NCBI RefSeq assembly: GCF_900105765.1
Contig: NZ_FNTX01000002.1
Coordinates: forward strand, 744,001-808,000
Length of the DNA: 64,000 bases
Reading direction: 5' to 3'
Source: Ruania alba
GTDB lineage: Bacteria; Actinomycetota; Actinomycetes; Actinomycetales; Beutenbergiaceae
A model generated the notes under the pieces. The model saw nothing but the letters and a program-made list of their open reading frames with translations. It was not told the origin of the DNA and did no database searches. The first letter of the stretch is position 1. Every line of letters begins with the position of its first letter. The translations under genes and the position numbers were made by a program. Positions 17,549-38,324 of this stretch are shown piece after piece.

Positions 17549-20500
17549 TCAGTTCATGGCGTACCGCCTGATACGCACTCCGAGCATCAGCAGGAGTAGG
17601 GCGGCCGCGAGATAGATCGGCGGCGCCGAAGCCCCGGTAGCAGCAAGCTCGGACCCGTCCGACGAATCGGTGGGAACCGCACCCCCACCCGTTCCCTCAG
17701 TGGAGACGGGACCGCCGCTGCTCGGGCCGGCCGTGCCAGGAGTCAGCGTACCGACCCCTCGACCGGGTCCACCGGTGCCGGAACCTGAGGATCCTGATCC
17801 GTTGGTGCCGTCGGTCCCGTCGGTTCCATCGGTCCCGTCGGTGCCGTCAGTTCCGTCAGTTCCGTCGGTTCCATCGGTGCCGTCGGTTCCATCGGTGCCG
17901 TCGGTTCCATCGGTCCCGTCGGTGCCGTCAGTTCCGTCGGTGCCGTCGGTCCCGTCGGTTCCATCGGTGCCGTCGGTTCCATCGGCTCCATCGGTGCCGT
18001 CGGTTCCATCGGTTCCATCGGTGCCGTCGGTTCCATCGGTGCCGTCGGTTCCATCGGTCCCGTTAGTAGCTTCACCGATCGCGTCAGTGACGGCATCGAC
18101 AACCTCACTGACCGTGTCAGTGACCTCCTCGAAAACCGGAGCAATGACATCCCGGACGTCCTCGGTCACATCACCAACAGTGTCCGTCACGTCATCCGTG
18201 GCCCCACCAACAGTGTCAGTCACATCATCCGTAGCTTCACCAACGGAGTCAGTCACATCACCCACGGTGTCGGTCACCTCTTCGGCAACCGGACCAACGA
18301 CATCCCGAACACCGTCCGTGACTCCACCAACGGAGTCAGTCACATCATCCGTGGCCTCACCAACGGTGTCAGTCACATCATCCGTGGCCTCACCAACAGT
18401 GTCAGTCACATCATCCGTGGCCCCACCAACCGTGTCAGTCACATCATCCGTAGCTTCACCAACGGAGTCAGTCACATCACCCACGGTGTCGGTCACCTCT
18501 TCGGCAACCGGACCAACGACATCCCGAACACCGTCCGTGACTCCACCAACGGAGTCAGTCACATCATCCGTGGCCCCGCCAACGGTGTCGGTCACATCAT
18601 CCGTGGCCCCGCCAACGGTGTCGGTCACATCATCCGTGGCCCCGCCAACGGTGTCGGTCACATCATCCGTGGCCCCGCCAACAGTGTCAGTCACATCATC
18701 GGTGGCCTCACCAACAGTGTCGGTCACATCATCGGTGGCCTCACCAACAGTGTCAGTCACATCATCCGTGGCCCCACCAACCGTGTCAGTCACATCATCC
18801 GTAGCTTCACCAACGGAGTCAGTCACATCACCCACGGTGTCGGTCACCTCTTCGGCAACCGGACCAACGACATCCCGAACACCGTCCGTGACTCCACCAA
18901 CGGAGTCAGTCACATCATCGGTGGCCTCACCAACGGTGTCAGTCACATCATCGGTGGCCTCACCAACAGTGTCAGTCACATCATCCGTAGCCCCACCAAC
19001 CGTGTCAGTCACATCACCCACGGTGTCGGTCACCTCTTCGGTGGCCCCGCCAACGGTGTCGGTCACATCATCCGTAGTTTCACCCACGGTGTCGGTCACA
19101 TCATCGGTGGCCTCACCAACGGTGTCGGTCACATCATCCGTAGCTTCACCCACGGTGTCGGTCACATCATCGGTGGCCCCGCCAACGGTGTCGGTCACAT
19201 CATCCGTAGCTTCACCCACGGTGTCGGTCACATCATCGGTGGCCTCACCAACGGTGTCGGTCACATCATCCGTAGCTTCACCCACGGTGTCGGTCACATC
19301 ATCGGTGGCCTCACCAACAGTGTCAGTCACATCATCGGTGGCCTCACCCACGGTGTCGGTCACATCATCGGTGGCCTCACCCACGGTGTCGGTCACATCA
19401 TCGGTGGCCTCACCAACAGTGTCAGTCACATCATCGGTGGCCTCACCAACAGTGTCAGTCACATCATCGGTGGCCTCACCAACAGTGTCAGTCACATCAT
19501 CGGTGGCCTCACCAACAGTGTCAGTCACATCATCGGTGGCCTCACCAACAGTGTCAGTCACATCATCGGTGGCCTCACCAACAGTGTCAGTCACATCATC
19601 CGTGGCCTCACCAACAGTGTCAGTCACATCATCCGTGGCCTCACCAACAGTGTCAGTCACATCATCCGTGGCCTCACCAACAGTGTCAGTCACATCACCC
19701 ACGGTGTCGGTCACCTCTTCGGCAACCGGACCAACGACATCCCGAACACCGTCCGTGACTCCACCAACAGTGTCAGTCACATCATCCGTGGCCCCACCAA
19801 CCGTGTCAGTCACATCGCCCACACCAGGCAACCCCGGCAGCTCAGGAACCTCAGGAGTCCCCGGAACCTCCGGCACACCAGGCAAACCAGGCAACACCGG
19901 CAGCGAGTCAACAACCTCACCCACCGGACCAGTCACCGAACCCACCAGATCACCAACATCCGGCAGCCCCGGCAGATCACCCAGACCAGGAAGACCCGGC
20001 AGGTCACCCAGCCCCGGCAGACCATCAATCACATCGCCCACACCAGGCAACCCCGGCAGCTCAGGAACCTCAGGAGTCCCCGGAACCTCCGGCACACCAG
20101 GCAAACCAGGCAACACCGGCAGCGAGTCAACAACCTCACCCACCGGACCAGTCACCGAACCCACCAGATCACCAACATCCGGCAGCCCCGGCAGATCACC
20201 CAGACCAGGAAGACCCGGCAGGTCACCCAGCCCCGGCAGACCATCAATCACATCGCCCACACCAGGCAACCCCGGCAGCTCAGGAACCTCAGGAGTCCCC
20301 GGAACCTCCGGCACACCAGGCAAACCAGGCAACACCGGCAGCGAGTCAACAACCTCACCCACCGGACCAGTCACCGAACCCACCAGATCACCAACATCCG
20401 GCAGCCCCGGCAGATCACCCAGACCAGGAAGACCCGGCAGGTCACCCAGCCCCGGCAGACCATCAATCACATCGCCCACACCAGGCAACCCCGGCAGCTC

Positions 20501-23500
20501 AGGAACCTCAGGAGTCCCCGGAACCTCCGGCACACCAGGCAAACCAGGCAACACCGGCAGCGAGTCAACAACCTCACCCACCGGACCAGTCACCGAACCC
20601 ACCAGATCACCAACATCCGGCAGCCCCGGCAGATCACCCAGACCAGGAAGACCCGGCAGGTCACCCAGCCCCGGCAGACCATCAATCACATCGCCCACAC
20701 CAGGCAACCCCGGCAGCTCAGGAACCTCAGGAGTCCCCGGAACCTCCGGCACACCAGGCAAACCAGGCAACACCGGCAGCGAGTCAACAACCTCACCCAC
20801 CGGACCAGTCACCGAACCCACCAGATCACCAACATCCGGCAGCCCCGGCAGATCACCCAGACCAGGAAGACCCGGCAGGTCACCCAGCCCCGGCAGACCA
20901 TCAATCACATCGCCCACACCAGGCAACCCCGGCAGCTCAGGAACCTCAGGAGTCCCCGGAACCTCCGGCACACCAGGCAAACCAGGCAACACCGGCAGCG
21001 AGTCAACAACCTCACCCACCGGACCAGTCACCGAACCCACCAGATCACCAACATCCGGCAGCCCCGGCAGATCACCCAGACCAGGAAGACCCGGCAGGTC
21101 ACCCAGCCCCGGCAGACCATCAATCACATCGCCCACACCAGGCAACCCCGGCAGCTCAGGAACCTCAGGAGTCCCCGGAACCTCCGGCACACCAGGCAAA
21201 CCAGGCAACACCGGCAGCGAGTCAACAACCTCACCCACCGGACCAGTCACCGAACCCACCAGATCACCAACATCCGGCAGCCCCGGCAGATCACCCAGAC
21301 CAGGAAGACCCGGCAGGTCACCCAGCCCCGGCAGACCATCAATCACATCGCCCACACCAGGCAACCCCGGCAGCTCAGGAACCTCAGGAGTCCCCGGAAC
21401 CTCCGGCACACCAGGCAAACCAGGCAACACCGGCAGCGAGTCAACAACCTCACCCACCGGACCAGTCACCGAACCCACCAGATCACCAACATCCGGCAGC
21501 CCCGGCAGATCACCCAGACCAGGAAGACCCGGCAGGTCACCCAGCCCCGGCAGACCATCAATCACATCGCCCACACCAGGCAACCCCGGCAGCTCAGGAA
21601 CCTCAGGAGTCCCCGGAACCTCCGGCACACCAGGCAAACCAGGCAACACCGGCAGCGAGTCAACAACCTCACCCACCGGACCAGTCACCGAACCCACCAG
21701 ATCACCAACATCCGGCAGCCCCGGCAGATCACCCAGACCAGGAAGACCCGGCAGGTCACCCAGCCCCGGCAGACCATCAATCACATCGCCCACACCAGGC
21801 AACCCCGGCAGCTCAGGAACCTCAGGAGTCCCCGGAACCTCCGGCACACCAGGCAAACCAGGCAACACCGGCAGCGAGTCAACAACCTCACCCACCGGAC
21901 CAGTCACCGAACCCACCAGATCACCAACATCCGGCAGCCCCGGCAGATCACCCAGACCAGGAAGACCCGGCAGGTCACCCAGCCCCGGCAGACCATCAAT
22001 CACATCGCCCACACCAGGCAACCCCGGCAGCTCAGGAACCTCAGGAGTCCCCGGAACCTCCGGCACACCAGGCAAACCAGGCAACACCGGCAGCGAGTCA
22101 ACAACCTCACCCACCGGACCAGTCACCGAACCCACCAGATCACCAACATCCGGCAGCCCCGGCAGATCACCCAGACCAGGAAGACCCGGCAGGTCACCCA
22201 GCCCCGGCAGACCATCAATCACATCGCCCACACCAGGCAACCCCGGCAGCTCAGGAACCTCAGGAGTCCCCGGAACCTCCGGCACACCAGGCAAACCAGG
22301 CAACACCGGCAGCGAGTCAACAACCTCACCCACCGGACCAGTCACCGAACCCACCAGATCACCAACATCCGGCAGCCCCGGCAGATCACCCAGACCAGGA
22401 AGACCCGGCAGGTCACCCAGCCCCGGCAGACCATCAATCACATCGCCCACACCAGGCAACCCCGGCAGCTCAGGAACCTCAGGAGTCCCCGGAACCTCCG
22501 GCACACCAGGCAAACCAGGCAACACCGGCAGCGAGTCAACAACCTCACCCACCGGACCAGTCACCGAACCCACCAGATCACCAACATCCGGCAGCCCCGG
22601 CAGATCACCCAGACCAGGAAGACCCGGCAGGTCACCCAGCCCCGGCAGACCATCAATCACATCGCCCACACCAGGCAACCCCGGCAGCTCAGGAACCTCA
22701 GGAGTCCCCGGAACCTCCGGCACACCAGGCAAACCAGGCAACACCGGCAGCGAGTCAACAACCTCACCCACCGGACCAGTCACCGAACCCACCAGATCAC
22801 CAACATCCGGCAGCCCCGGCAGATCACCCAGACCAGGAAGACCCGGCAGGTCACCCAGCCCCGGCAGACCATCAATCACATCGCCCACACCAGGCAACCC
22901 CGGCAGCTCAGGAACCTCAGGAGTCCCCGGAACCTCCGGCACACCAGGCAAACCAGGCAACACCGGCAGCGAGTCAACAACCTCACCCACCGGACCAGTC
23001 ACCGAACCCACCAGATCACCAACATCCGGCAGCCCCGGCAGATCACCCAGACCAGGAAGACCCGGCAGGTCACCCAGCCCCGGCAGACCATCAATCACAT
23101 CGCCCACACCAGGCAACCCCGGCAGCTCAGGAACCTCAGGAGTCCCCGGAACCTCCGGCACACCAGGCAAACCAGGCAACACCGGCAGCGAGTCAAGGAC
23201 CTCAGCAGGTGCCCCGGCCACATCCTCAACCGCACCACCAACGGAGTCAGTCACACCATCGGTCGACTCGACCACATCACCAGTAACACCGTCCGCAGCA
23301 CCAGTCACCGAATCAGCAACCTCACCAACCGGACCAGTCACCGAACCCACCAGATCACCGGCACCAGGCAACGAGCCCAGAACATCACCGGGAGCCCCGG
23401 CCACATCCTCAACCGCACCACCAACGGAGTCAGTCACACCATCGGTCGACTCGACCACATCACCAGTAACACCGTCCGCAGCACCAGTCACCGAATCAGC

Positions 23501-24874
23501 AACCTCACCAACCGGACCAGTCACCGAACCCACCAGATCACCGGCACCAGGCAACGAGCCCAGAACATCACCGGGAGCCCCGGCCACATCCTCAACCGCA
23601 CCACCAACGGAGTCAGTCACACCATCGGTCGACTCGACCACATCACCAGTAACACCGTCCGCAGCACCAGTCACCGAATCAGCAACCTCACCAACCGGAC
23701 CAGTCACCGAACCCACCAGATCACCGGCACCAGGCAACGAGCCCAGAACATCACCGGGAGCCCCGGCCACATCCTCAACCGCACCACCAACGGAGTCAGT
23801 CACACCATCGGTCGACTCGACCACATCACCAGTAACACCGTCCGCAGCACCAGTCACCGAATCAGCAACCTCACCAACCGGACCAGTCACCGAACCGACC
23901 AACCCACCAGCGCCAGGCGCCGTATTCCCGTTGGCCGGGTCATTCCCGTTGCCACCGTTCCCGTTGGCCGGGTCATTCCCGTTGCCACCGTTCCCGTTGG
24001 CCGGGTCATTCCCGTTGCCACCGTTCCCGTTGGCCGGGTCATTCCCGTTACCACCGTTCCCGTTGGCCGGGTCATTCCCGTTACCACCGTTCCCGTTGGC
24101 CGGGTCATTCCCGTTGCCACCGTTCCCGTTGGCCGGGTCATTCCCGTTACCACCGTTCCCGTTGGCCGGGTCATTCCCGTTACCACCGTTCCCGTTGGCC
24201 GGGTCATTCCCGTTACCACCGTTCCCGTTGGCCGGGTCATTCCCGTTACCACCGTTCCCGTTGGCCGGGTCATTCCCGTTACCACCGTTCCCGTTGGCCG
24301 GGTCAAGGGCCTCTTGCACTACCCCGGACACATCGTCGACCGCGCCCGCGGCTGCCCGATCCACGGCCTGCACCGTCTCTGAGCCCAACACCTCACCGAC
24401 AACAGCACACGCACAATTGCCATTGCCGTGATTCTCGTTTGCCGCGGACTCACCGGACTGCGCCGCCGCATCGACCTCAGCCTCAGCCGCGACCTCAGCC
24501 TCGGCCGCACCCGATGTCTGTCCGGACTCCGTGCGCTCAGCTGCCGCGGAGACCGTCTCGTCGACCGTCGTGACGGCACTGGCATCAGCCTCGTTGCTCT
24601 CGACTTCGACGGCGACTTCACCTTGCTCGCCGCCGGACGCATCCGCACCTGCGGATGACTCACCTTCCTCACCGGTGAGAACTTCGGTGACTTCATCGAC
24701 AACTGAACCTCCGCCTTCGGACTCACCTTGTGAGTTCGATTCAACGGGTGCTGTGTCGAGAAGTCCACCAATCGCGTCGTCACCTGTTGCGGCGCTTGCA
24801 GCGCCAGCACCGATGACCACGAGTCCCCCGGTCAGGAGCGCCGTTTGGACGGCGCGCCTGACATAGATTCGCAT
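17549..24874 (-). CDS. Giant repetitive sortase-anchored surface protein (2441 aa, LAATG)
   Basis: Start ATG at 24874 with CAGGAG seven to eight bases upstream; an upstream in-frame start at 24904 lacks support. Signal peptide: [20 protein letters not shown] ending AASA. Order of parts, N to C: acidic low-complexity region with an NCACAVVG cysteine pair; about 11 copies of [11 protein letters not shown]; four 61-aa repeats; 15 complete 73-aa Pro/Gly repeats ([20 protein letters not shown] and similar); a long region built on the 11-mer [11 protein letters not shown]; a Gly-Thr-Asp triplet array; then LAATG, a hydrophobic helix and a positively charged tail (RIRRYAMN). LAxTG is the motif preferred by class E sortases of actinobacteria, so wall anchoring is expected. 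It lies 82 bases after surface protein A on the same strand, presumably in one operon. Function unknown; a surface fibre or matrix component is inferred. Confidence 0.85.
17802..18065 (-). repeat. Gly-Thr-Asp triplet array in giant 1
   Basis: About 30 consecutive TDG (Gly-Thr-Asp) triplets with synonymous codon variation, interrupted once by an Ala. It precedes the wall-anchor region of the protein. Confidence 0.9.
18175..19810 (-). repeat. 33-bp repeat array encoding [11 protein letters not shown]-type 11-mers
   Basis: Mostly 33-base units coding for an 11-residue motif alternating EATDD, GATDD or TTDD with VTDTVG. Spaced through it is a longer insert carrying [19 protein letters not shown]. 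Units differ by few bases. Confidence 0.9.
19811..23095 (-). repeat. 15 tandem copies of a 219-bp unit
   Basis: The landmark CACATCGCCC recurs at 19811, 20030, 20249 and onward to 23096, exactly 219 bases apart, giving 15 complete units and a partial sixteenth. By eye the units look identical in sequence. Each codes for 73 aa. Confidence 0.92.
23211..23926 (-). repeat. Four tandem copies of a 183-bp unit
   Basis: GCCCCGGCCACATCC recurs at 23211, 23394, 23577 and 23760. Each unit codes for 61 aa containing [20 protein letters not shown]; the copies are nearly identical. Confidence 0.9.
23924..24305 (-). repeat. 33-bp array encoding [11 protein letters not shown]
   Basis: About eleven and a half 33-base units in a row, differing only at a synonymous base (GTTGCC versus GTTACC on the plus strand). 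Asn/Gly-rich flexible segment of giant 1. Confidence 0.9.
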
Positions 24875-24900
24875 CAAAGATCTCCTGACTTGTGGATGAC

Positions 24901-24917
24901 GCACCCGTACCGGGTGC
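24901..24917. other. Intercistronic hairpin between surface protein A and giant 1
   Basis: GCACCCG TAC CGGGTGC: 7-base arms, 3-base loop, in the 82-base gap. The equivalent gap of the second module also has a short hairpin. Could attenuate or stabilise the downstream message. Confidence 0.4.
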
Positions 24918-24956
24918 CAAACGCGCGCCGGTCTCAGGGACCAGCCGTGTCATCCG

Positions 24957-26396
24957 TCAGTCAGGAGAGATGACGACGTCGAGAATGACGTCGAGGAAAG
25001 ACCACATCGCGCCCGCTCCCACCTGCGTGGAGCTCGTGGGCGGCGAGAAGTGCTCGTGATGTCCGATCGTCGCGACCGAGGCTGAGCCAGCGGCGGTCGG
25101 CCCATACGCGACACCTGTCGACACCATCCCGTCAGTTGGGACGGTGAAGCCCGCACGCTCCGGCGCCTGCGTCGGCACCATCTGCTGCACCGGGGCGGCA
25201 ATCTCGTTCGTGGGGAGCGCTACCGACTGCGGCACGTCGTGAATCGTCGCAGTGACCGGGTGCAGCACGGTGCCGCCAGCTGGGGCAGCATCAGTCGCGG
25301 GCTTATCTGCCGTCGCGTGTGCGACCCTCAAGGGCTCAGCGATCGAAGCTGTCGTTGGCGTCGTCGCTGGTGCACGATCGACGACCGCGAACGCTTCAGT
25401 CGCCGCGACCGCGTCGTCAACTAGCGAGATGCCCACGGTCGACTTCACATCATTGAGCGGGCTCAACACGGTGTTACCGACGGGTGCAGTGAGCGCCACG
25501 ACCGGCTCAGCGAGTGCCACGACCGGCTCAGTGAGCGCTACGACCGGCTCGAGCACCGGGTCCAGAACTGGGCGCACAGGCTCGAGGACCGGGTCAAAGG
25601 ATGCGACCACCGGCTCGAGCGCGCCATCCACCACCGGCACCATGGAGACCAGGTCGGTGATCGGTCCGGGGGTCGGCTCCTCGGACTCCGAGACGACGAT
25701 CAGCAAGACATCCCCGGCGATGTCGGTGGGCACTGACTCCGTCCGAGGTTCTGAGGACTCCGACTCCACCGCGGCCTGGTCCGTGTGAGCACCATTGCTC
25801 GCTGGCTCGACCTCGGCTTCTGCCTCGATGTCACTGGTACCTGAGGGGGCCACCGGCTCTGCTGCCTCGACCACTGGCTCGACCACATCGGCCAGGTCGG
25901 CAACAGGTTCAGTGGCTTCGCTGACCTCTTCGGTGACCGCAGCGGCCGGCTCCGTGACGTGCTCGACCACTTCGTTTACCGGTTCGGTCGCCTGCTCGAG
26001 GACCTCGCCGGCCCCACCGGCCACCTCAGCCACCGGCTCGCTCGCGGCGGCAACCGGCTCCTCAGCGGGCGCCGCTTCCTCAGCAGGCGCCGCTTCCTCA
26101 GCGGCTGCGGCCTCCGGCTCTACATCCTCGGCAGCAGCGGCGCCGTCGCCAGCCTCAGCTGACGCGGCCGGCTCATTGCTAACGTCAGCCACCTCGTCAA
26201 CGACGTCTGTCGCGTCATCGACCACATCGGTCGCGTCGCCGAGCAGTCCACCCACGGGGGAGTCGTCCGCAGATGCCGCGGTGCTGAATGCCGCGCCGAG
26301 GACGACAGCACCGAAGAAGGTCATCATGCAGCGCAGGGCCCAGCGCAGCGAACGGCGCGCGCCGCCCCGCTGCTGACCTTCTGTGCTGCTGCGCAT
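24957..26396 (-). CDS. Secreted Ala/Val/Glu-rich surface-associated protein A
   Basis: About 479 aa from the ATG at 26396 (MRSSTEGQQRGGARRSLRWA), which follows AGGGGA eight bases upstream; an in-frame ATG at 26432 overlaps a likely -10 box. The signal peptide has an RRSLRWALRC basic part and a hydrophobic core ending AASA. The N-terminal mature region (GDATDVVDDATDVVDEVADV) resembles the 11-mer repeats of the giant downstream. The middle is acidic and Ala-rich with heptad-like Val/Glu/Pro repeats (ALTEPVVALAEPVVALTAPV). The C-terminus ends FLDVILDVVISPD, almost as in paralogue B. No membrane anchor or sortase motif is present. Giant 1 follows after 82 bases. No family recognised; probable partner of the giant protein by context. 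Confidence 0.75.
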   Translation of the reverse strand: MRSSTEGQQRGGARRSLRWALRCMMTFFGAVVLGAAFSTAASADDSPVGGLLGDATDVVDDATDVVDEVADVSNEPAASAEAGDGAAAAEDVEPEAAAAEEAAPAEEAAPAEEPVAAASEPVAEVAGGAGEVLEQATEPVNEVVEHVTEPAAAVTEEVSEATEPVADLADVVEPVVEAAEPVAPSGTSDIEAEAEVEPASNGAHTDQAAVESESSEPRTESVPTDIAGDVLLIVVSESEEPTPGPITDLVSMVPVVDGALEPVVASFDPVLEPVRPVLDPVLEPVVALTEPVVALAEPVVALTAPVGNTVLSPLNDVKSTVGISLVDDAVAATEAFAVVDRAPATTPTTASIAEPLRVAHATADKPATDAAPAGGTVLHPVTATIHDVPQSVALPTNEIAAPVQQMVPTQAPERAGFTVPTDGMVSTGVAYGPTAAGSASVATIGHHEHFSPPTSSTQVGAGAMWSFLDVILDVVISPD

Positions 26397-26430: not shown

Positions 26431-26458
26431 ATGTTACTCACATCACACAACCGTGCAA
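26431..26458 (-). promoter_or_regulatory. Candidate promoter of surface module 1
   Basis: On the minus strand: TTGCAC, 16 bases, TAACAT. The same arrangement (TTGCAC, 16 bases, TAGCAT) with a nearly identical spacer precedes paralogue B. Conservation between two diverged copies supports a regulatory role. The -10 box overlaps an upstream in-frame ATG, so that ATG cannot be the start if this promoter is used. Confidence 0.45.
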
Positions 26459-26602
26459 GCAGGGCGCAGATGAACATCAGGTGACGGACGGGTCGAGTGG
26501 CGGTGACCTCTGCGTGGCGAGTGCCACAGCACGCACGCGCACGAGCGTGAAAGACTTGCAACGATGCGCTCGAGCGGCGGGCGTGCGAGGAATGGAGGTC
26601 CG

Positions 26603-27964: not shown

Positions 27965-27975
27965 GGAGGCCTGAG

Positions 27976-28968
27976 TTGCCCGCAGTACAGCCCGACGCCG
28001 TCCCGTCCGTCTCCCATCAGGCCGACCCGTTGGAGGTGCTCATCCTCGCGGGCGGGCTCTCCCATGAGCGTGAGGTCTCGGTCAGGTCCGGTCGGCGAGT
28101 AGCCGAAGCCCTCCGCTCTGCCGGCGCTTCTGCCACCGTGCACGACCTGGACACCAGCCTGTTGGACTTCCTGCACACGGCCCGACCGGACGTCGTCTGG
28201 CCGCTGCTGCACGGCTCCACGGGCGAGGACGGGGCGATCCGTGATTTGCTCGCCCTCGCCGGTGTGCCGTACGTGGGCACAGACTCTGCCGGGGCACGGA
28301 TCACCTGGTCCAAGCCGGTCGCGGCATCCATGATGCGCCGTGCTGGAGCACGCACACCTGAATCGGCGACTCTGCCGCAGAGCCTGTTCCGCGAGGTCGG
28401 CGCCCGCGCCGTGCTGGGACGCGTGGTGAGCCGCCTCCCGTTGCCCCTGGTGGTCAAGCCCGCGATGGGTGGCTCAGCGCTCGGGGTGACGGTGGTGACC
28501 GATCCCGAGCACCTGCCGCAGGCCATGGTGCATTGCTTCTCCTATGGCGAGACGGCACTGATCGAACGCGCAGTGGAGGGGACCGAGCTGGCGGTCTCGG
28601 TCGTGGACAACGGTGCAGGCCCACGGGCACTGCCGGCGGTCGAGATCGTGACGGACGGGCCCTACGACTACGACGCGCGGTACAACGCCGGGCGCACCGA
28701 GTACTTTGCCCCCGCACGGCTCTCCGCCGAACAGGCCCGAGCTGCCGCAGAGCTGGCTGTGCTCGCCCACCAGACCCTGGGTTTGCAACACCTGTCCCGC
28801 ACGGACATGATCGTCGACCCCGACGGCCTCCCATGGTTCCTCGAGGCGAACGTCGCCCCGGGAATGACCGAGACAAGCTTGTTCCCGCAAGCCGTGCGAG
28901 CCGCAGAGGACTCGATCGACCGGCTCTATCTGGAACTGGCATACGCGGGCCAGCGCGCGCAGCGCTGA
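27976..28968 (+). CDS. D-alanine-D-alanine ligase family protein (ATP-grasp)
   Basis: 330 aa with a TTG start at 27976, preceded by GAGGAGG; a start in the other frames is not credible. Visible: ILAGGLSHEREVSVRSGRRV (N-terminal Ddl motif), VWPLLHGSTGEDGAIR, LPLVVKPAMGGSALGVTVV (ATP-grasp lysine region) and RTDMIVDPDGLPWFLEANVAPGMTETSLFPQA (metal-binding Glu/Asn and C-terminal motif). It probably joins D-Ala residues for peptidoglycan. A second, housekeeping Ddl may exist elsewhere, since this origin-proximal paralogue accompanies the aminotransferase. Its last ~100 codons are present again at ~38015-38317. Confidence 0.85.
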   Translation: MPAVQPDAVPSVSHQADPLEVLILAGGLSHEREVSVRSGRRVAEALRSAGASATVHDLDTSLLDFLHTARPDVVWPLLHGSTGEDGAIRDLLALAGVPYVGTDSAGARITWSKPVAASMMRRAGARTPESATLPQSLFREVGARAVLGRVVSRLPLPLVVKPAMGGSALGVTVVTDPEHLPQAMVHCFSYGETALIERAVEGTELAVSVVDNGAGPRALPAVEIVTDGPYDYDARYNAGRTEYFAPARLSAEQARAAAELAVLAHQTLGLQHLSRTDMIVDPDGLPWFLEANVAPGMTETSLFPQAVRAAEDSIDRLYLELAYAGQRAQR

Positions 28969-28975
28969 GCGCCGA

Positions 28976-29080
28976 CTACTCCTCGTCGACGGGAGCCTCC
29001 CGCAGGACTCCCGGGTCACTCGGCGTCAGCACACCCAGGATCCGGTTCAGATCCTGCACACTCGCGCACTCGATGCTCAG
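28976..29080 (-). pseudogene. Duplicated 3' end of parB (fragment)
   Basis: On the minus strand this reads [20 protein letters not shown] and on to a TAG stop, matching the last ~33 codons of the intact parB (38325-39716). By eye about 85% of bases match; similarity stops abruptly near 29081. It sits directly after ddl in the same convergent arrangement that the ddl remnant has with intact parB. It is the left-hand scar of a segmental duplication. Confidence 0.8.
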
Positions 29081-29147: not shown

Positions 29148-29180
29148 TGTCTCACGCGCGTGCTACTCCTTCGACGTTGC

Positions 29181-31610
29181 TCAGGAGTGGCTCGCGCCCG
29201 TGCCGGCTGCAACGGTGTAGTTGCAGACGAACCTGTAGGTCGTGACCTTGGAGGTATCCGCCTCATCGGCGAAGGTCACGGTGACGGCGTTCGCCCCCTC
29301 TGTGGGAGTGAAGGTCACCGAGCACGTGGTGGACTGACCCGCCTCCAGCGTTTCCGCCTCACAGGTCACCTCACCAGCCTCCGACTGAGCGGCCAACTCG
29401 ACACTGCTGCTGCCGTTGTTGGTCACCGGGATGGCCATCGTGATCTGCTCACCCACACCGTCCGGCGTCTCGCCGGCAGCAATGACCTCGACGGTGGGCT
29501 GTGTCACGGTGAAGTGCGCCGTGCCGGATCCTCCGTCGTTGCCGTTCTCGCTCCCGTTGTAGGTGAAGGAGAATTCGAAGACGCCACCCTCATTGGGGCC
29601 CGACTCACTGCCGAATGTCACGTTCACGGTGTTCTCTCCCTCAGCAGGAGTGACCGTGATCGAGCACGTGGTGGACTGACCCGCCTCCAGCGTTTCCGCC
29701 TCACAGGTCACCTCACCAGCATCGGACTCAGCCACCAGCGAAGTGATGGTCTCGGCACCGCTGTTGGTCACCGGAATGGTCATCCGGACCTGCTCACCCA
29801 CACCGTCCGGCGTGTCAGCAGCTGGAATGACCTCCATGCCGGCCTCATCCACAGAGAACGTCGGATCGCTCGAGCCGCCACCCAGCAGATCACCGGTCGG
29901 GAGGCTCCCGAGCAGGTCACCCGTGGGCAGGCCACCGATCAGATCATCGGTGGGCAGGCCACCGACCAGATCATCGGTGGGCAGGCCGTCCGTGGGGAGC
30001 CCGTCCGTGGGCAAGCCACCCAGCAGGTCACCCGTGGGCAGACCACCGAGCAGGTCACCCGTGGGCAGACCACCGAGCAGATCGCCCGTGGGCAGACCAC
30101 CCAGCAGGTCACCCGTGGGCAGACCACCGACCAGATCATCGGTCGGGAGTGTGCCGCTGCCATCCGTGCCATCGGTCCCGGTAGTTCCGGTGAAGGTGAA
30201 CGTGAACTGGAAGGATCCGACGCTCGAGGAGTCGCCCTCACTGCCGAATGTCACGTTCACGGTGTTCTCTCCCTCAGCAGGAGTGACCGTGATCGAGCAC
30301 GTGGTGGACTGACCCGCCTCCAGCGTTTCCGCCTCACAGGTCACCTCACCAGCATCGGACTCAGCCACCAACGAAGTGATGGTCTCGGCACCGCTGTTGG
30401 TCACCGGAATGGTCATCCGGACCTGCTCACCCACACCGTCCGGCGTGTCAGCAGCTGGAATGACCTCCATGCCGGCCTGATCCACAGAGAACGTCGGCAC
30501 GCTCGAGCCGCCGTCGGCGCCTTCGCTCGAGCCGCCGCCCAGCAGATCACCGTTGGCCAGGCCGCCAATCAGTCCGTCGGCGCCTGAGCCATCTCCCGTT
30601 CCGCCGCTCACAATGGAGGACAGCGACTCGAGGGTGTTGATGTTCTCCGTCACCTCAAGGGCTTCGAGGATGGCTGTGGGATCGCCGCTGGACACACTCT
30701 CCAGTGCCGTCTCCCACAAGAGCCGCCAGGTATCAACGTGATCACCTGCGAAACCGACGTACTCCTCCATGTTGGTCAACGTCTCGGGAGTCACGCGCGC
30801 CAGAATGTCCGACGCGTCAGTTGTCTCCCAGAGATAGTTGGGGTTCGTGAGCATTTCTGGACTCGGAAGGCCCGGAATGATCAGATCTGAAAGGTTAGCC
30901 AGTTCATCAGCTGACGGGACATTCAGAGTCGTTAGGTCATTCGAGTCCAGAGGGATTCCGATCCCGCCGCATGAGGTGAGCAGGGTCACATAGTCAGTGC
31001 CGTGCCCCCTCACGTGCGAGGGGTTGAAAACCGGAATCCAACCCAGGGGTCCACCGTAGATGTCGATGACCGGCATGTCGGAGTTTCCGATGGCACCACT
31101 GGCCAAGGAGAGAACCAGGTTCTCGTAGGTGTCATCGGTGTGGAATTCGTTGAAGTGCGAGAAAGTTCCAAGCAGTGGAATTCCCTCTTCGTTGGCCCAC
31201 ATGTGATCGAGGAAGAAGGTACAGGCGTCTCCTCCGCCGCCGCCGTGCCCTCCGTGACCACCGCCACCTTCCTCGTGGCCACCGTCACCTTGCTCCTGGC
31301 CAGCGTTTCCGCCTCCATGCCCTCCGTGCCCGTCTGACTGTCCGCCGGACTGGGCACCGGTGGCACTGATCAGTTGCGGATCAGAGGAAGAGCCGCCCTG
31401 CGTGGTCATCACTGGCGAATCGTCAGTCGGCTCGTCTGACCCAAGGGGAGCGGCCATCGCTGAGGACATCAGGCCGAAGCTCGCCGCCGCGGCAACGACT
31501 ATCGATGCCACTGTACGACCCGTCCGGCGCGCGAATGCGGGAGGCACACTCCTCTCCGGCTGCACGTATTCGGAGTCACCGTGACGGCGACCCCACATGA
31601 TGATTGACAT
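29181..31610 (-). CDS. Secreted His/Gly-rich protein with Ig-like repeats
   Basis: 809 aa from the ATG at 31610, preceded by GGAGAAG. Signal peptide around RRTGRTVASIVVAAAASFG ending SAMA. Then a His/Gly-rich stretch (GHGGHGGGNAGQ, GGGGHGGHGGGGG), a ~250-aa domain of unknown type (starting CTFFLDHMWANEEG), an Ig-like domain, an array of GLPTGDLLG-type 9-mers, and two more Ig-like domains. Each Ig-like unit is ~85 aa, begins near F(S/T)V and has a cysteine pair (VTCEAETLEAGQSTTC). Giant 2 has two units of the same type. No sortase motif or C-terminal membrane helix, so it is probably released or held by other surface proteins. The unknown domain and His-rich segment might bind metal (inference). 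Confidence 0.75.
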   Translation of the reverse strand: MSIIMWGRRHGDSEYVQPERSVPPAFARRTGRTVASIVVAAAASFGLMSSAMAAPLGSDEPTDDSPVMTTQGGSSSDPQLISATGAQSGGQSDGHGGHGGGNAGQEQGDGGHEEGGGGHGGHGGGGGDACTFFLDHMWANEEGIPLLGTFSHFNEFHTDDTYENLVLSLASGAIGNSDMPVIDIYGGPLGWIPVFNPSHVRGHGTDYVTLLTSCGGIGIPLDSNDLTTLNVPSADELANLSDLIIPGLPSPEMLTNPNYLWETTDASDILARVTPETLTNMEEYVGFAGDHVDTWRLLWETALESVSSGDPTAILEALEVTENINTLESLSSIVSGGTGDGSGADGLIGGLANGDLLGGGSSEGADGGSSVPTFSVDQAGMEVIPAADTPDGVGEQVRMTIPVTNSGAETITSLVAESDAGEVTCEAETLEAGQSTTCSITVTPAEGENTVNVTFGSEGDSSSVGSFQFTFTFTGTTGTDGTDGSGTLPTDDLVGGLPTGDLLGGLPTGDLLGGLPTGDLLGGLPTGDLLGGLPTDGLPTDGLPTDDLVGGLPTDDLIGGLPTGDLLGSLPTGDLLGGGSSDPTFSVDEAGMEVIPAADTPDGVGEQVRMTIPVTNSGAETITSLVAESDAGEVTCEAETLEAGQSTTCSITVTPAEGENTVNVTFGSESGPNEGGVFEFSFTYNGSENGNDGGSGTAHFTVTQPTVEVIAAGETPDGVGEQITMAIPVTNNGSSSVELAAQSEAGEVTCEAETLEAGQSTTCSVTFTPTEGANAVTVTFADEADTSKVTTYRFVCNYTVAAGTGASHS

Positions 31611-31797
31611 AATTACTTCTCCATTCTCATCCATCGAATTTTCGGGATTCGTGAGACCGATGGATCGCACCGATCTCGGAGATCAAGGCCCTCCGGAGGG
31701 TGAATTCGTATGAGAGTCCTCGATCTGTTCTCAGGGACACCAGTGCAGGAGGGTCACGTCGTTTGTTCCGACATGAACTGGTGTCGTCGCGTTCCCC

Positions 31798-31827
31798 GCC
31801 CGCTGCCTGTTTGGCGAGCAGACGGGC
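31798..31827 (-). terminator. Hairpin after giant 2
   Basis: On the minus strand GCCCGTCTGC ... GCAGCGGGC forms a stem with one bulged base, 16 bases after the giant 2 stop. Partial confidence because of the bulge and lack of a T-run. Confidence 0.5.
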
Positions 31828-31842
31828 TTCAGAGGCCGTGGA

Positions 31843-34800
31843 TCACGTCGTCATGGCTCGACGGCGGCGCACCATCACCAGACCAGAAAGAATCAGCAAG
31901 CCTGCGATTCCGGCAAGTTGGGGACTTCCCACACCTGTCGCTGGCAACACGCCGATAGGTCCGAATCCGGGTGAGGTGATTGATACAGAGGATCCGCCGG
32001 TCACGATCGAGCCACCGGTAACATGGCTGACGCTCCCACCGGGCACAATCGCGCCACCAGTTGGGAAGGACACGCTGCCACCAGTCACGTTCGAGACGCC
32101 TGTGACATCCACTGACCCGCCGACGCCACCGGTTCCGTTGGTGTCGTCCGTTGCGTTGACGGGGAACTGGTAGGTGGCCACCTTTGAGACATCAGTCTCA
32201 TCGATGAAGGCCACGGTCACCGTGCTCACACCATCCGGCGTAAACGTCACCGTACAGGTCGTGGATTCACCAGGAGCCAACGACGTCGACTCACAGGTCA
32301 GCTCACCAACATCAGACTGAGCCACCAAACTCCCAACCGGAGTATCACCGCTATTGGTCACAGAAACCGTCATACGGATCTGCTCACCAACACCCTCCGG
32401 AGTGTCAGCCGCCGGCACAACTTCCATGCTGGCCTCATCCACAGTGAAAACCACCGTGCCCGATGTGCCGTCGATGCCATCGCCACCGTCCGTTGCGTTG
32501 ACGGGGAACTGGTAGGTGGCCACCTTTGAGACATCAGTCTCATCGATGAAGGCCACGGTCACCGTGCTCACACCATCCGGCGTAAACGTCACCGTACAGG
32601 TCGTGGATTCACCAGGAGCCAACGACGTCGACTCACAGGTCAGCTCACCAACATCAGACTGAGCCACCAGACTCCCAACCGGAGTATCACCGCTATTGGT
32701 CACAGAAACCGTCATACGGATCTGCTCACCAACACCCTCCGGAGTGTCAGCCGCCGGCACAACTTCCATGCTGGCCTCATCCACAGTGAAAACCACCGTG
32801 CCCGATGTGCCGTCGATGCCGTCAGTGCCGCTGGTCCCATTGGTTCCGTCAGTGCCGTCGGTCCCGTCCGGGCTGTCGGTCCCGTCAGTGCCGTCAGTTC
32901 CATCGGTCCCGTCGGTGCCGTCAGACCCATCGGTCCCATCAGTGCCGTCGGTCCCGTCCGGGCTGTCGGTCCCATCAGTGCCGTCAGTGCCGTCAGTGCC
33001 GTCAGTTCCATCGGTCCCGTCGGTTCCGTCGGTCCCGTCCGGGCTGTCGGTCCCATCAGTACCGCCGAGCAGACCACCAGGATCATCACCAAGCAGCCCA
33101 TCAGTCACACCACCCGGCAAAACACCAAGCAGCCCATCACTCACACCAGCGCCATCAGACCCATCAGTGCCGCCAAGCAGACCACCAAAATCATCACCAA
33201 GCAGCCCATCAGTCACACCACCCGGCAAAACACCAAGCAGCCCATCACTCACACCAGCGCCATCGGTCCCGTCAGCTCCATCGGTCCCGTCGGTCCCATC
33301 GGTGCCGTCAGACCCATCGGTCCCATCAGTGCCGTCGGTCCCGTCCGGGCTGTCGGTCCCATCAGTACCGCCGAGCAGACCACCAAAATCATCACCAAGC
33401 AGCCCATCAGTCACACCACCCGGCAAAACACCAAGCAGCCCATCACTCACACCAGCGCCATCGGTCCCGTCAGCTCCATCGGTTCCGTCAGTCCCGTCGG
33501 TGCCGTCGGTGCCATCGGTCCCGTCGGTTCCATTGGTCCCGTCGGTGCCGTCGGTTCCGTCGGTTCCATCGGTTCCATCGGTCCCGTCGGTTCCGTCAGG
33601 CCCGTCGGTTCCATCGGTTCCGTCGGTTCCATCGGTCCCGTCGGTTCCATTGGTCCCGTCGGTTCCATCGGTCCCGTCGGTTCCATCGGTTCCATCGGTC
33701 CCGTCGGTTCCATCGGTCCCGTCGGTTCCATCGGTCCCGTCGGTTCCATCGGTCCCGTCGGTTCCATCGGTCCCGTCGGTCCCGTCGGTCCCGTCGGTTC
33801 CATCGGTCCCGTCGGTCCCATCGGTCCCGTCGGTTCCATCGGTCCCATCGGTTCCATCGGTCCCGTCGGTTCCATCGGTTCCGTCAGTCCCATCGGATCC
33901 ATCGGATCCGTCAGTCCCATCGGATCCATCGGATCCATCGGATCCATCGGTCCCATCGGTTCCATCGGTCCCGTCAGTCCCATCGGTTCCGTCAGTCCCA
34001 TCGGATCCATCGGATCCGTCAGTCCCATCGGATCCATCGGATCCGTCAGTCCCATCGGATCCATCGGATCCATCGGTTCCATCGGATCCATCGGTTCCAT
34101 CGGTGCCATCGGTCCCATCGGTTCCATCGGTCCCGTCAGTCCCATCGGATCCGTCAGTCCCATCGGATCCATCGGTTCCATCGGTGCCATCGGTCCCATC
34201 GGATCCGTCAGTCCCATCGGTCCCATCGGTGCCATCGGTCCCATCGGATCCGTCAGTCCCATCGGTCCCATCGGTGCCATCGGTGCCATCGGTCCCATCG
34301 GATCCGTCAGTCCCATCGGTCCCATCGGAGCTGTCAGTTCCGTCAGTGCCGCCGAGCAGACCACCAGGATCATCACCAAGCAGCCCATCAGTCACACCAC
34401 CCGGCAAAACACCAAGCAGCCCATCACTCACACCAGCGCCATCGGTCCCGTCAGCGCCATCGGTCCCGTCAGCGCCATTGGTCCCGTCGGTGCCATCGGT
34501 CCCGTCGGTCCCATCGGTGCCATCGGCTCCATCGGCTCCATTGGTCCCGTCGGTTCCGTCCGGGCTGTCGGTGCCATCGGTCCCGTCGGTTCCGTCGGTC
34601 CCGTCAGTCCCATCGGTCCCGTCAGTTCCATCGGTGCCATCGGTCCCGTCGGTGCCATCGGTCCCGTCAGTTCCATCGGTGCCATCGGTCCCGTCGGTGC
34701 CATCGGTCCCATCGGATCCGTCAGTTCCATCGGTCCCATCGGTGCCATCGGTGCCATCGGATCCGTCAGTTCCATCGGTGCCATCGGTCCCGTCGGTCCC

Positions 34801-35880
34801 ATCGGATCCGTCAGTCCCATCGGTGCCATCGGTCCCATCGGATCCGTCAGTCCCATCGGTGCCATCGGTGCCATCGGTCCCATCGGATCCGTCAGTCCCA
34901 TCGGTGCCATCGGATCCGTCAGTCCCATCGGTCCCATCGGATCCGTCAGTGCCATCGGTGCCATCGGATCCGTCAGTCCCATCGGTCCCATCGGATCCGT
35001 CAGTGCCATCGGTCCCATCGGATCCGTCAGTCCCATCGGTCCCATCGGATCCGTCAGTCCCATCGGTTCCATCGGTTCCGTCCGGGCTGTCGGTGCCGTC
35101 GGTCCCATCGGAGTCCGACCCGTCCTCGGTCACGTCCTCAACCGTGCAGCAACCAGGACCGTCGTCGGCGCCGCCCGAGCCGTCAGGCTCGGAGCCTTCA
35201 GAACCGTCCGAACCATCGGAGCCCGAAGATCCGCTCTCGGTCACATCCTCAACGGTGCAGCACTCTTCTTCTGCTTCTGCGCTGACACTCGTACTCGCTG
35301 CAGCTGTCGACGACTGGTCATCGCCGCCACTCGCAGTTTCGGGGTCCACCACAACTGTGGCTGCCCCATCACTCGATTCACCAGCACTCACACTGGCCTC
35401 GGCGGCCGATTCATCGGAGGCGCTGGTCTCTGCCGCGTCGCCGTGGTCCTCGTCGCCACCTTGGTGCTCGACGGCGGACTCGTTCTGAGCAGATTCCTGT
35501 CCGTCGATGCTCGTGCCTTCATCCGCAGCCTCCGGCTGCACGGCACTTGTGTCTGACACCACGGTCTGCTCTACCGTGGTCGTTACCTCTGGCTGGTCAC
35601 TGTCATCGCACTCACCGTCTGTACTCGTCGGCAGAATGCCGTCAAGCACAGCAAGTAGGTCGTCGTCGGTTGATTCACAAATGGCCTCATCATTAGCATC
35701 TGCGCTTCCGCTTTCGGCGGTTCTCTCGACGGTTTCTGAGACCGAGGATATGGCGCTGCTTTCGACGATGCCGTCAACCGCAGAGTCATCATTGGCGGCA
35801 TGCGCTCCGGCTGCGCCAACAACCACGAGCCCACCAGTGAGCAGCGACGTTTGTAACACGCGCCTCACATTGGTATGCAT
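31843..35880 (-). CDS. Giant repetitive sortase-anchored surface protein 2 (1345 aa, LPATG)
   Basis: Start ATG at 35880 with CAGGAG upstream. The signal peptide ([20 protein letters not shown], ending AHA) is clearly paralogous to that of giant 1. An acidic N-terminal region of ~230 aa contains two copies of CCTVEDVTE. Several hundred residues of Gly-(Thr/Ser)-Asp triplets follow, interrupted four times by a segment with VSDGLLGVLPGGVTDGLLGD. Then come two 114-aa units with Ig-like domains (cysteine pair LTCESTSLAPGESTTC) and a Gly/Ser/Val tail ending GVLPATG, a hydrophobic helix and RRRRAMTT. This is a standard cell-wall sorting signal. It follows surface protein B by 85 bases on the same strand. 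Function unknown; wall-anchored matrix or adhesive fibre inferred. Confidence 0.85.
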   Translation of the reverse strand: MHTNVRRVLQTSLLTGGLVVVGAAGAHAANDDSAVDGIVESSAISSVSETVERTAESGSADANDEAICESTDDDLLAVLDGILPTSTDGECDDSDQPEVTTTVEQTVVSDTSAVQPEAADEGTSIDGQESAQNESAVEHQGGDEDHGDAAETSASDESAAEASVSAGESSDGAATVVVDPETASGGDDQSSTAAASTSVSAEAEEECCTVEDVTESGSSGSDGSDGSEGSEPDGSGGADDGPGCCTVEDVTEDGSDSDGTDGTDSPDGTDGTDGTDGSDGTDGTDGSDGTDGTDGSDGTDGTDGSDGTDGTDGSDGTDGTDGSDGTDGTDGSDGTDGTDGTDGTDGSDGTDGTDGTDGSDGTDGTDGTDGTDGSDGTDGTDGTDGTDGSDGTDGTDGTDGTDGTDGTDGTDGTDGTDGTDGTDGTDGTDGTDGTDGTDSPDGTDGTNGADGADGTDGTDGTDGTDGTNGADGTDGADGTDGAGVSDGLLGVLPGGVTDGLLGDDPGGLLGGTDGTDSSDGTDGTDGSDGTDGTDGTDGTDGTDGSDGTDGTDGTDGTDGSDGTDGTDGTDGSDGTDGSDGTDGTDGTDGTDGTDGTDGSDGTDGSDGSDGTDGSDGSDGTDGSDGSDGTDGTDGTDGTDGTDGTDGSDGSDGSDGTDGSDGSDGTDGTDGTDGTDGTDGTDGTDGTDGTDGTDGTDGTDGTDGTDGTDGTDGTDGTDGTDGTDGTDGTDGTDGTDGTDGTDGTNGTDGTDGTDGTDGTDGPDGTDGTDGTDGTDGTDGTDGTNGTDGTDGTDGTDGTDGTDGADGTDGAGVSDGLLGVLPGGVTDGLLGDDFGGLLGGTDGTDSPDGTDGTDGTDGSDGTDGTDGTDGADGTDGAGVSDGLLGVLPGGVTDGLLGDDFGGLLGGTDGSDGAGVSDGLLGVLPGGVTDGLLGDDPGGLLGGTDGTDSPDGTDGTDGTDGTDGTDGTDGTDGTDSPDGTDGTDGTDGSDGTDGTDGTDGTDGTDSPDGTDGTDGTNGTSGTDGIDGTSGTVVFTVDEASMEVVPAADTPEGVGEQIRMTVSVTNSGDTPVGSLVAQSDVGELTCESTSLAPGESTTCTVTFTPDGVSTVTVAFIDETDVSKVATYQFPVNATDGGDGIDGTSGTVVFTVDEASMEVVPAADTPEGVGEQIRMTVSVTNSGDTPVGSLVAQSDVGELTCESTSLAPGESTTCTVTFTPDGVSTVTVAFIDETDVSKVATYQFPVNATDDTNGTGGVGGSVDVTGVSNVTGGSVSFPTGGAIVPGGSVSHVTGGSIVTGGSSVSITSPGFGPIGVLPATGVGSPQLAGIAGLLILSGLVMVRRRRAMTT
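32146..32829 (-). repeat. Two 342-bp copies of the Ig-like unit in giant 2
   Basis: GTCCGTTGCGTTGAC begins both copies, at 32146 and 32488, a period of 342 bases (114 aa). The copies are almost identical at base level. Confidence 0.88.
32806..35110 (-). repeat. Gly-Thr/Ser-Asp triplet array in giant 2
   Basis: A 9-base-period array coding mainly GTD and GSD with occasional SPD, PD, AD or ND variants, interrupted by four copies of the GLLGVLPGG-containing segment. Codons vary synonymously (ACC/ACT, GAC/GAT, GGG/GGC/GGA/GGT). Confidence 0.9.
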
Positions 35881-35937
35881 GGAAGTACTCCTGACTGACT
35901 GGGTGGAATGCGCTAAGAACGCGCATTAATTTGACAC

Positions 35938-35955
35938 GCCGGAACTATTTCCGGC
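35938..35955. other. Intercistronic hairpin between surface protein B and giant 2
   Basis: GCCGGAA CTAT TTCCGGC, 7-base arms, in the 85-base gap; positional counterpart of the hairpin in module 1. Confidence 0.4.
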
Positions 35956-35965
35956 CGCCAACCCG

Positions 35966-37813
35966 TCAGTCAGGTGCGACGATAACGTCGAGAATTACGT
36001 CCAGGGCTGTCCCGGGAGGCGCCGAGACCGCAAGAGTGCTCAAAAAGTCCGAAGGAAGCCTTAATCCCCCGGTGACATCCGCGTGGCCTGCACCGAACGA
36101 CTGGCCGGCCGCATTCCCTGCGGACGACGGCGCCGAGACCGGTGTGCCGACTGGGACCGGTTCATGTTCGGACCCCGACACTGTGCTGGTGACATCTCCT
36201 ACAGCGGCTACTGTGCTCGCCTGCGCCGCACCAGCACTACCAACCTCATGCTCGAGGTGCCATCTCTCCGGGGCTTCGGCGACCGAACTGGCCTGCGGCG
36301 GGCTCGTCACGTCTACGCTCACCGGTTCAGGTGCGGGCGATCGCACCTCGACGTCATAGAACTGAATGGCCGGAGGCGACAAGAAAGTGACATCGACAAA
36401 CTGCACGGTGCGGGTACTGCTCAGATCGGATACCAATCCGATCAGCGAACCGCCCACCGGTGCTGTCACAGAACTAACGAGCGGACTCACCGCAGCGGTC
36501 ACCGGTTCGACAGTATCGGTGACCAGGGTGACTGCGCTTCCCAGGACCGGCGCGACCACGTCACTCACCACTGGATCAATCAATGGCGCAACGACGGGTA
36601 CCAGAAGCGTCTCGCTCACCGGTTCGGCAAGGTCGACTACCGGCTCCGCTACCGCGGCCACCGCTCCGGTGAGGTCACGGACGGTCGTGCTGACGCCGAC
36701 CACGTCGTCAAGCAATGTTCCAACGGAGTCCGCAACAAGGACGCCCTCGCTTGACCTTTCGGTCACCGCAGGTGATACGTCAGGCTGGACGACAGACTGT
36801 GGCACCGACGTCAGATCGCTGACAGCCTCGCGAGCTGTTTCGACAATGGGTGTGGGCTCGGTGTCATCAGCAGTCAGAGTGTCGACGATGGAAGACACCG
36901 CGCCCAGCACGTTCGTCGACGACGACTCGGCATCCGTCGTCGGCACGCCTGCAAGCGCGGTCTGCTGCTCGGCGACCGGTTCGATGGCTTCGCTGGCCCG
37001 TTCCGTAACTTGGCTGGCCTGTTCGACGACCTCCGCCGTCGGCTGCGTCACCTGCTCGACCACATCTCCTGCAGGTTCGGTCACCTGCCCAACTACGTTG
37101 CCGAGCCCGCCAGCAACCTGAGCCACCGTCTCCCGGAGTGCGCTGGTTGGCCGTTCGTCGACTACCGCGTCCGCAGCGGGTCGAGTGTCCTCAGCGGGGG
37201 AAGCCTCGTTGCTGGATGCCGCGCTCTCGTCGTCGGGTGCTGCGCTCTCGTCAGCGGGTGCCGCGCTCTCGTTAGCCGCACCACCGTCGTCAGCGGGTGC
37301 GTCACTCTCGTGGGGTGCAACGCCCTCATCGGCACGTGCACCGTCCTCGCTAGCTGCAGCACTCTCGTCGGCGGGTGCACCGTCCTCGACGGGCGCACCC
37401 TCAGCTTCCGCAGCCTCGTCTTGCGTTACCTCCGCCTCCGGAACCTCTGGATCCGCAGCCCCCTCGGCTCCGGTCTGTTGGGTGGCAGCCCCCTCATTGC
37501 CCGTGCCGGCTACTGCGTTCACGACGTCGGCCACGCCAACTGCATCCGTTGCGTCGCCGACCACGCCAGTCGCCTCGTCCACGACATCCGTTGCAGCTGC
37601 ATCCGTCGCATCGTCGACCACGCCAGTCGCCTCGTCCACGACATCTGTTGCATCGCCGAGGAGTCCGCCCACGAGCGAGTCTTCGGCCGACGCCGCGGTA
37701 CTGAAGGCCGAGCCGAGAACGATGGCGCCGAAGAAGGTGATCATGCAGCGCAGGGCCCATAGCAGCGAACGGCGCAGGCCGCCCCCCTGCTGGCCGTCTG
37801 TACTGCTGCGCAT
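35966..37813 (-). CDS. Secreted Ala/Val/Glu-rich surface-associated protein B
   Basis: 615 aa from the ATG at 37813 (MRSSTDGQQGGGLRRSLLWA). Signal peptide nearly identical to A: basic RRSLLWALRC, hydrophobic core, AASA cleavage. The mature N-terminus (GDATDVVDEATGVVDDATD) again resembles the giant-1 11-mers. A middle acidic Ala/Ser-rich region carries repeated SAAPADESAAPDDESAA-like units. A C-terminal half is rich in Val/Pro/Leu (VVAPLIDPVVSDVVAPVLGS). The last residues ALDVILDVIVAPD match the end of A. No anchor motif. Giant 2 follows after 85 bases. The conserved ends with a divergent middle suggest that the two tips are functional, for secretion and for assembly or interaction. Confidence 0.75.
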   Translation of the reverse strand: MRSSTDGQQGGGLRRSLLWALRCMITFFGAIVLGSAFSTAASAEDSLVGGLLGDATDVVDEATGVVDDATDAAATDVVDEATGVVGDATDAVGVADVVNAVAGTGNEGAATQQTGAEGAADPEVPEAEVTQDEAAEAEGAPVEDGAPADESAAASEDGARADEGVAPHESDAPADDGGAANESAAPADESAAPDDESAASSNEASPAEDTRPAADAVVDERPTSALRETVAQVAGGLGNVVGQVTEPAGDVVEQVTQPTAEVVEQASQVTERASEAIEPVAEQQTALAGVPTTDAESSSTNVLGAVSSIVDTLTADDTEPTPIVETAREAVSDLTSVPQSVVQPDVSPAVTERSSEGVLVADSVGTLLDDVVGVSTTVRDLTGAVAAVAEPVVDLAEPVSETLLVPVVAPLIDPVVSDVVAPVLGSAVTLVTDTVEPVTAAVSPLVSSVTAPVGGSLIGLVSDLSSTRTVQFVDVTFLSPPAIQFYDVEVRSPAPEPVSVDVTSPPQASSVAEAPERWHLEHEVGSAGAAQASTVAAVGDVTSTVSGSEHEPVPVGTPVSAPSSAGNAAGQSFGAGHADVTGGLRLPSDFLSTLAVSAPPGTALDVILDVIVAPD

Positions 37814-38317: not shown

Positions 38318-38324
38318 GCGCCGA

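Follow-up and report, generated by a model that had tools for sequence, protein, structure and literature searches.

Between trxA and parB, genes that lie in a compact cluster in most of the relatives compared, the actinomycete Ruania alba carries two predicted giant surface proteins, each encoded behind a shorter secreted protein. This raises the question of whether the genes are chance neighbours or the parts of a single system. The locus lies in a stretch of 64,000 nucleotides (nt) from NCBI RefSeq assembly GCF_900105765.1 (contig NZ_FNTX01000002.1, positions 744,001 to 808,000), which we call the window and to whose full length all coordinates refer. An open reading frame check of the window placed the five frames concerned on the minus strand; they are named throughout as A and B for the shorter secreted proteins, G1 and G2 for the giants that follow them and T for a third secreted protein that follows G2. 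We read A-G1 and B-G2 as two copies, now diverged, of a two-gene surface unit of actinobacteria that is coupled through RNA, together with T as a probable metal binder, and we put the probability of this at about 0.6.

By sequence, A-G1 and B-G2 are paralogous pairs of a predicted secreted protein followed by a giant with a sortase-type tail. An annotation made earlier from the letters of the window (the original prediction) had described two pairs of one design, and the five frames lie where it placed them, with 80% in common between A and B over a 71-residue N-terminus. Its other structural claims largely stand: A and B share the C-terminal tips LDVILDVVISPD and LDVILDVIVAPD, the spacing of 82–85 bases corresponds to gaps of 82 nt from A to G1 and 85 nt from B to G2, the giants have a signal-peptide region common to both (37% over the aligned N-terminus), and T and G2 have an Ig-like unit in common at 54–55% identity. 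A and B were however described as small, while they are 479 and 615 amino acids (aa) long. Of the two sortase motifs, the LPATG tail of G2 lies just above the cut-off of TIGR01167 (16.3 bits against 15.9), while the LAATG tail of G1 was read by eye and a scan with a sortase-anchor library gave no G1 match. For A and B an NCBIfam-type anchor scan found no LPXTG-anchor match up to an expectation value (E) of 1, and A and B with four A/B-like proteins of other families had no convincing match in Pfam or NCBIfam, each library being scanned with five of the six. The proposed resemblance of the A and B N-termini to the 11-residue repeats of G1 turned out to be weak, as A scored 50 against shuffles at 40.7 (standard deviation 8.5, highest 68) and B 87 against 48.1 (standard deviation 9.2, highest 77), and the strongest period is 7 rather than 11; the co-assembly of A and B with these repeats, as first proposed, is accordingly only weakly supported.

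The pair recurs well outside Ruania. Among 23 relatives, a profile of the A/B N-terminus gave strong matches in G003, Ruania albidiflava DSM 18029 (G005), G007 and Occultella gossypii (G023) and weak ones in G010 and G015, and in two genomes of another family an A/B-like frame is followed 85 nt on by a G-like frame. A search of the order with a profile of the G N-terminus (E up to 0.01) gave 115 match rows in 100 of 396 genomes. The 70 rows examined, from 67 genomes, are those of the best 77 that remain when seven are taken out, namely three second hits (G000, G023 and G022), one of the two hits in G747, and the hits in G070, G592 and G508. The second G000 hit is A-G1, which was treated apart. 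An upstream frame on the same strand ending in P-D/A/G (proline followed by aspartate, alanine or glycine) was present at 65 of the 70 rows, in 62 genomes, with B-G2 of the window as one of them; 60 of these frames were picked by coding pattern alone and five with the help of the tip motif. The gaps range from 75 to 141 nt, 55 of the 65 being 75–100 nt. Of 327 control frames, which were longer and had passed a stricter coding filter than those of the partner picking, only 5 end in P-D/A/G, three of these five being such partners themselves. Outside the order the pattern was found at 17 of 31 loci examined (families f45 3/3, f58 2/2, f37 3/3, f35 9/19, others 0/4). Whether A-type genes and giants co-occur in actinobacterial genomes was the check proposed with the original prediction, and they do. 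No match was found to B in a genome-collection scan, to the A/B profile in four other genomes carrying T, or to the first 245 residues of one G protein in plasmids. The counts argue that the A/B-G pair is a widespread, recurring unit, wider than Ruania, and that its members are probably not chance neighbours.

The two genes of the pair are joined by a conserved, covarying RNA structure in which the stop region of the first gene pairs with the ribosome-binding side of the second. The last 12 bases of the A/B gene plus the gap were folded for each of the 65 junctions. All 65 have at least five pairs between the stop region and the Shine-Dalgarno (SD) side, and 58 have exactly two hairpin loops; 48 have every base of the stop codon in a pair, and in 62 pairing takes up at least half of the SD. 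The folding z-score has a median of −4.3 and is below −2 in 60 of the 65. The mean stem energy is −24.2 kcal/mol for a junction's own two sides and −20.65 kcal/mol when sides are swapped within a family (0 of 5000 permutations). A covariance model, R1, was built from eight junction sequences, both window sites included. At E up to 0.0021 it finds 33 sites, the eight training sites among them, and all are junctions on the expected strand; at E up to 1 there are 55 matches, including eight on the opposite strand of a junction and one within T. In the 33-site alignment, two-sided changes occur in 13 of the 17 model pairs and 89.9% of cells are paired against 73.3% when shuffled. The covariation score is 0.311, against 0.112 when shuffled and at most 0.075 when slid, in an alignment whose 33 rows lean towards the model. 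A-G1 and B-G2 each have an upstream secreted-type frame ending in P-D/A/G and a junction folded over the stop codon and SD side, both sites being in the R1 training set.

Beyond the order, 13 junctions were folded, with 13–19 stem pairs in the three of f45, 5–17 in f37, 2–9 in f35, and 0 and 3 in the two of f58; by eye, the SD in the f37 folds is not covered as it is in the order. In Nocardioides jejuensis T lies directly downstream of an A/B-like frame, and there the stop and SD sides can pair. Rfam 15 has nothing overlapping the junctions in window positions 17000–40000 (E up to 1) or in 20 related loci (gathering scores). The same database places FMN and SAM-IV riboswitches near G-type loci (L101 2–143 and L109 1–101), unrelated to the junction.

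The position of the fold suggests coupled translation of the two genes. The first gene would encode a secreted partner with no recognised wall anchor that ends in P-D/A/G, and the second a long protein whose tail marks predicted wall linkage, often with chaplin repeats in other families. The mRNA between them is predicted to form a closing stem plus, usually, two hairpins over the A/B stop codon and the G ribosome-binding site. On reaching the end of A/B, a ribosome would melt the stem and thereby free G for translation, and the two proteins would be made together. A/B would then remain with G on the cell surface, where sortase is predicted to anchor G to the wall. Giant repetitive regions appear in Ruania in place of the chaplin repeats found elsewhere, the second module probably came from a tandem duplication, and the third secreted protein T comes after B-G2. 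T probably binds metal, perhaps copper, and the giants may hold or space T on the wall.

T has a core in which five His and two Cys are invariant in an eight-row alignment. Its identity is 79–83% with the cores of Arthrobacter sp. SW1, Nesterenkonia sp. F and Brachybacterium sp. FME24 and falls to 51% with that of N. jejuensis. The core occurs in 4 of 24 genomes of the family (the window's own, G003, R. albidiflava and O. gossypii), in 1 of 394 in a class-wide sample, which is again the window's own genome, and at six loci in a genome-collection scan; no match was found in plasmids. In G007, an assembly of about 360 contigs, the end of a T-like frame lies at a contig edge. At fourfold sites the window copy has 44% identity to R. 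albidiflava and 48% to Arthrobacter, roughly the same distance in both cases, with saturation at 37%. These figures would fit a transfer of T between lineages. Searching PDB sequences with a T profile yielded a pair of matches, at E of 0.18 and of 1.4, which were taken as chance. The T gene of Nesterenkonia sp. F, at L050 6597–8153, seems to lie within a group of folate-pathway genes, and three T relatives (L049–L051) presumably end in a CHRD-like region.

The neighbours of T in relatives lead to a different account of the Ruania locus, in which it would serve copper acquisition, with T, YcnI and CopCD as the working parts and A/B-G only as scaffold. Behind T in R. albidiflava and G003 come first a DUF1775 (YcnI) gene and then a CopC-CopD-YtkA gene. 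In G007 T is followed by a PF07987 gene and then by one resembling the same CopCD, so that the order recurs in three genomes and at two different chromosomal places, CopCD of G007 being assigned by likeness only. PF07987 was found in three of five module-bearing Ruaniaceae and in none of 13 others searched, and the five invariant His of the T core point the same way. In Bacillus subtilis YcnI binds Cu(II) and a role as importer has been proposed for YcnJ, in an account whose available text mentions neither a surface giant nor a T protein (PMC8424229). However, PF07987 has no match in the genome of the window, in a whole-genome search of which CopC and CopD were not part, or in Occultella, so copper capture in this organism is only plausible. 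No copper genes were found near T in the stretches examined from Arthrobacter, Nesterenkonia and Brachybacterium, the nearest PF07987 in Arthrobacter being about 19 kb off. We regard copper acquisition as the purpose of the locus as a credible but doubtful account.

It could also be that the C-terminal tip of A/B is kept for a reason of the protein, such as processing, export or docking on G, and that the RNA stem is secondary. The P-D tip does persist at both f58 loci, whose stems have 0 and 3 pairs. On the other hand the codon for the penultimate proline is CCT in 48 of the 65 frames, against 9.9% elsewhere in the same frames, and this bias, with the covariation of the stem, implies selection on the nucleotides too and not on the protein alone. 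A reason in the protein is thus rather unlikely to be the whole explanation. Still less probable, in our judgement, is that the junction acts as a transcription attenuator or mRNA-stability element that sets the A/B:G ratio without coupling translation. The two hairpins in most folds would suit such an element, but no consistent run of T follows them in the junctions read by eye, and the SD nearly always lies at least half inside the fold. It is highly improbable that A/B are unrelated neighbours and the giants no more than common adhesins or collagen-like proteins of the surface: G2 does match collagen repeats (PF01391, 268.6 bits), with 600 of its 1345 residues in Gly-X-Y runs of at least eight triplets, but the pairing and the RNA linkage recur across families.

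Several observations weigh against the reading of an RNA-coupled surface unit with T as a metal binder. Swapped stems still pair in 90% of cases (mean 11.1 pairs against 14.8 for a junction's own sides), which is due to sequence conservation of the stem core, the own and swapped stems of family f17 (four junctions) are nearly equal at −22.9 and −22.3, and outside the order the stem varies down to the two f58 junctions described above. Five of the 70 rows have no partner and look like unrelated signal peptides, 14 of the 31 loci outside the order have none, and 45 of the 115 G-profile matches lie outside the examined set; the search profile is mostly signal peptide, so weak matches include unrelated proteins. 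AlphaFold2 on seven T sequences gave no usable model (mean pLDDT 38), and the missing PF07987 counts here as well. The link to chaplins is also incomplete. The chaplin domain PF03777 (E up to 0.01) is present in 39 of the 65 second proteins, G2 of the window being within the 65, in a scan that covered their first 47–300 residues, many ending at the edge of the fetched stretch; the other 26 have no match in the part scanned. G1 and G2 have no PF03777 match up to E of 1, and the Ruania giants and the chaplin-type partners have only the N-terminal signal region and position in common.

The closest known systems, as far as the accessible parts of the literature show, are the long chaplins and the CwpA-CwpB pair. 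The long chaplins ChpA-C of Streptomyces are likewise secreted, sortase-anchored surface proteins, and the passages available mention no secreted partner gene or RNA junction (PMC4255298, PMC13251363); their domain is the PF03777 carried by 39 of the second proteins and absent in G1 and G2. CwpA-CwpB of Actinoplanes missouriensis is an apparent operon of two surface-protein genes, long-chaplin-like without chaplin domains, and both proteins are described in the text available as sortase-dependent, unlike A and B, which lack a sortase-anchor match (PMC13251363). Searches of open-licence papers, at the level of titles, abstract openings and passages, turned up no description of a partner gene or junction (including PMC4255298, PMC13251363 and PMC13293333). 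SCO1860, considered as a possible Streptomyces partner, was rejected, the accessible texts showing an LAETG-anchored family and no such partner.

Scl-type collagen-like adhesins have a Gly-X-Y tract and an LPXTG-type tail, as G2 does, but G2 is below the curated cut-offs of the Scl families. Bacterial collagen-like proteins have proline-rich triplets, whereas the Gly-X-Y runs of G2 are nearly without proline (1 Pro in 600 residues). Neighbouring cysteines recur in G2 (31843–35880) in a motif of CC followed by T/S-V/I-E/D-DVT, which is also present in the G003 and Occultella copies and could serve metal binding or cross-linking. G2 further holds a 342-bp tandem duplication (32145–32820, 99% match) that spans an Ig-like unit. 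In G1, 15.5 copies of a 219-bp repeat occupy 19806–23204 with a 99% match, which suggests recent expansion and a copy number that likely varies between strains. G1 also matched apolipoprotein, YtxH and related families in Pfam, matches that we ascribed to low complexity and disregarded.

Seven of nine relatives fetched (G001, G002, G004, G006, G010, G013 and G023) have the genes in the compact order trxB-trxA-aat-ddl-parB, while the stretch fetched from G003 and from G009 showed neither aat nor ddl. The window keeps this order, with G1-A between trxA and aat and T-G2-B between ddl and parB, so the modules flank aat-ddl and do not replace the compact stretch as had been predicted. Among the relatives compared G002 is closest at the locus (aat 95% and trxB 92% protein identity). 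Relics of aat and ddl lie between B and parB and a relic of the parB end lies after ddl, with 28665–29049 matching 38014–38398 over 367 of 386 aligned columns. These relics indicate a tandem duplication around aat-ddl as the likely source of the second module. In R. albidiflava and G007 parts of the module are at the ends of two contigs, next to parB in one case and towards trxA in the other, and no aat-ddl was found in the stretches read beside them; in G003 the module is elsewhere on the chromosome. A promoter-like block with TGTGATGTGAG in its spacer was found alike, by eye, 5′ of six Ruaniaceae A/B genes. The features of the window are collected in Table 1.

Table 1. Features of the A-G1 and B-G2 modules and of the genes and relics around them.
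Feature	Position	Strand	Remark
G1, predicted giant surface protein: signal peptide, CAC motif, 11-residue repeats, 73-residue (219-bp) repeats, one Gly-X-Y tract, LAATG-type tail	17549..24874	−	LAATG read by eye
RNA junction A-G1: A stop region folded onto G1 ribosome-binding side	24872..24977	−	Model R1 77.4 bits; site in training set
A, predicted secreted partner, 479 aa, C-terminal tip ISPD	24957..26396	−	
Promoter-like block 5′ of A, TTGCAC-16-TAACAT, TGTGATGTGAG in spacer	26431..26458	−	Read by eye
aat, aminotransferase frame of the conserved locus, retained	26564..27964	+	
ddl-type frame, retained; true start probably further in	27676..28968	+	
Relic of parB 3′ end, read as tandem-duplication trace	28976..29049	−	DNA self-match
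T, predicted secreted protein: His-rich stretch, conserved core, Ig/CARDB-like units (3 stretches)	29181..31610	−	
T core, rare conserved domain: 5 invariant His and 2 invariant Cys (8-row alignment)	30609..31226	−	
G2, predicted giant: CCTVEDVT motifs, nearly Pro-free Gly-Thr-Asp collagen-like tract, two Ig-like units, LPATG tail	31843..35880	−	
RNA junction B-G2	35878..35986	−	Model R1 85.5 bits; site in training set
B, predicted secreted partner, 615 aa, C-terminal tip VAPD	35966..37813	−	
Promoter-like block 5′ of B, TTGCAC-16-TAGCAT	37848..37875	−	Read by eye
Relic of aat 5′ end	37910..37991	+	87% to 26571–26654
Relic of ddl 3′ end	38014..38324	+	DNA self-match

If this reading is true, the junction would be a conserved RNA element for which scans of the sites gave no Rfam entry, and with T a new candidate would join the metal-binding domains. 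A wider proposal, to which we give a little less than even odds, is that many actinomycete chaplin-type wall proteins are the second half of an RNA-coupled pair whose unnamed secreted partner is needed for assembly, the Ruania unit being a giant metal-collecting fibre with T. A review has pointed to chaplin-like genes even in a nonsporulating Arthrobacter, with the suggestion that their older role may be surface attachment (PMC4255298). A fixed secreted partner, made via a shared RNA structure, would if true provide a testable handle on this older role of the chaplins.

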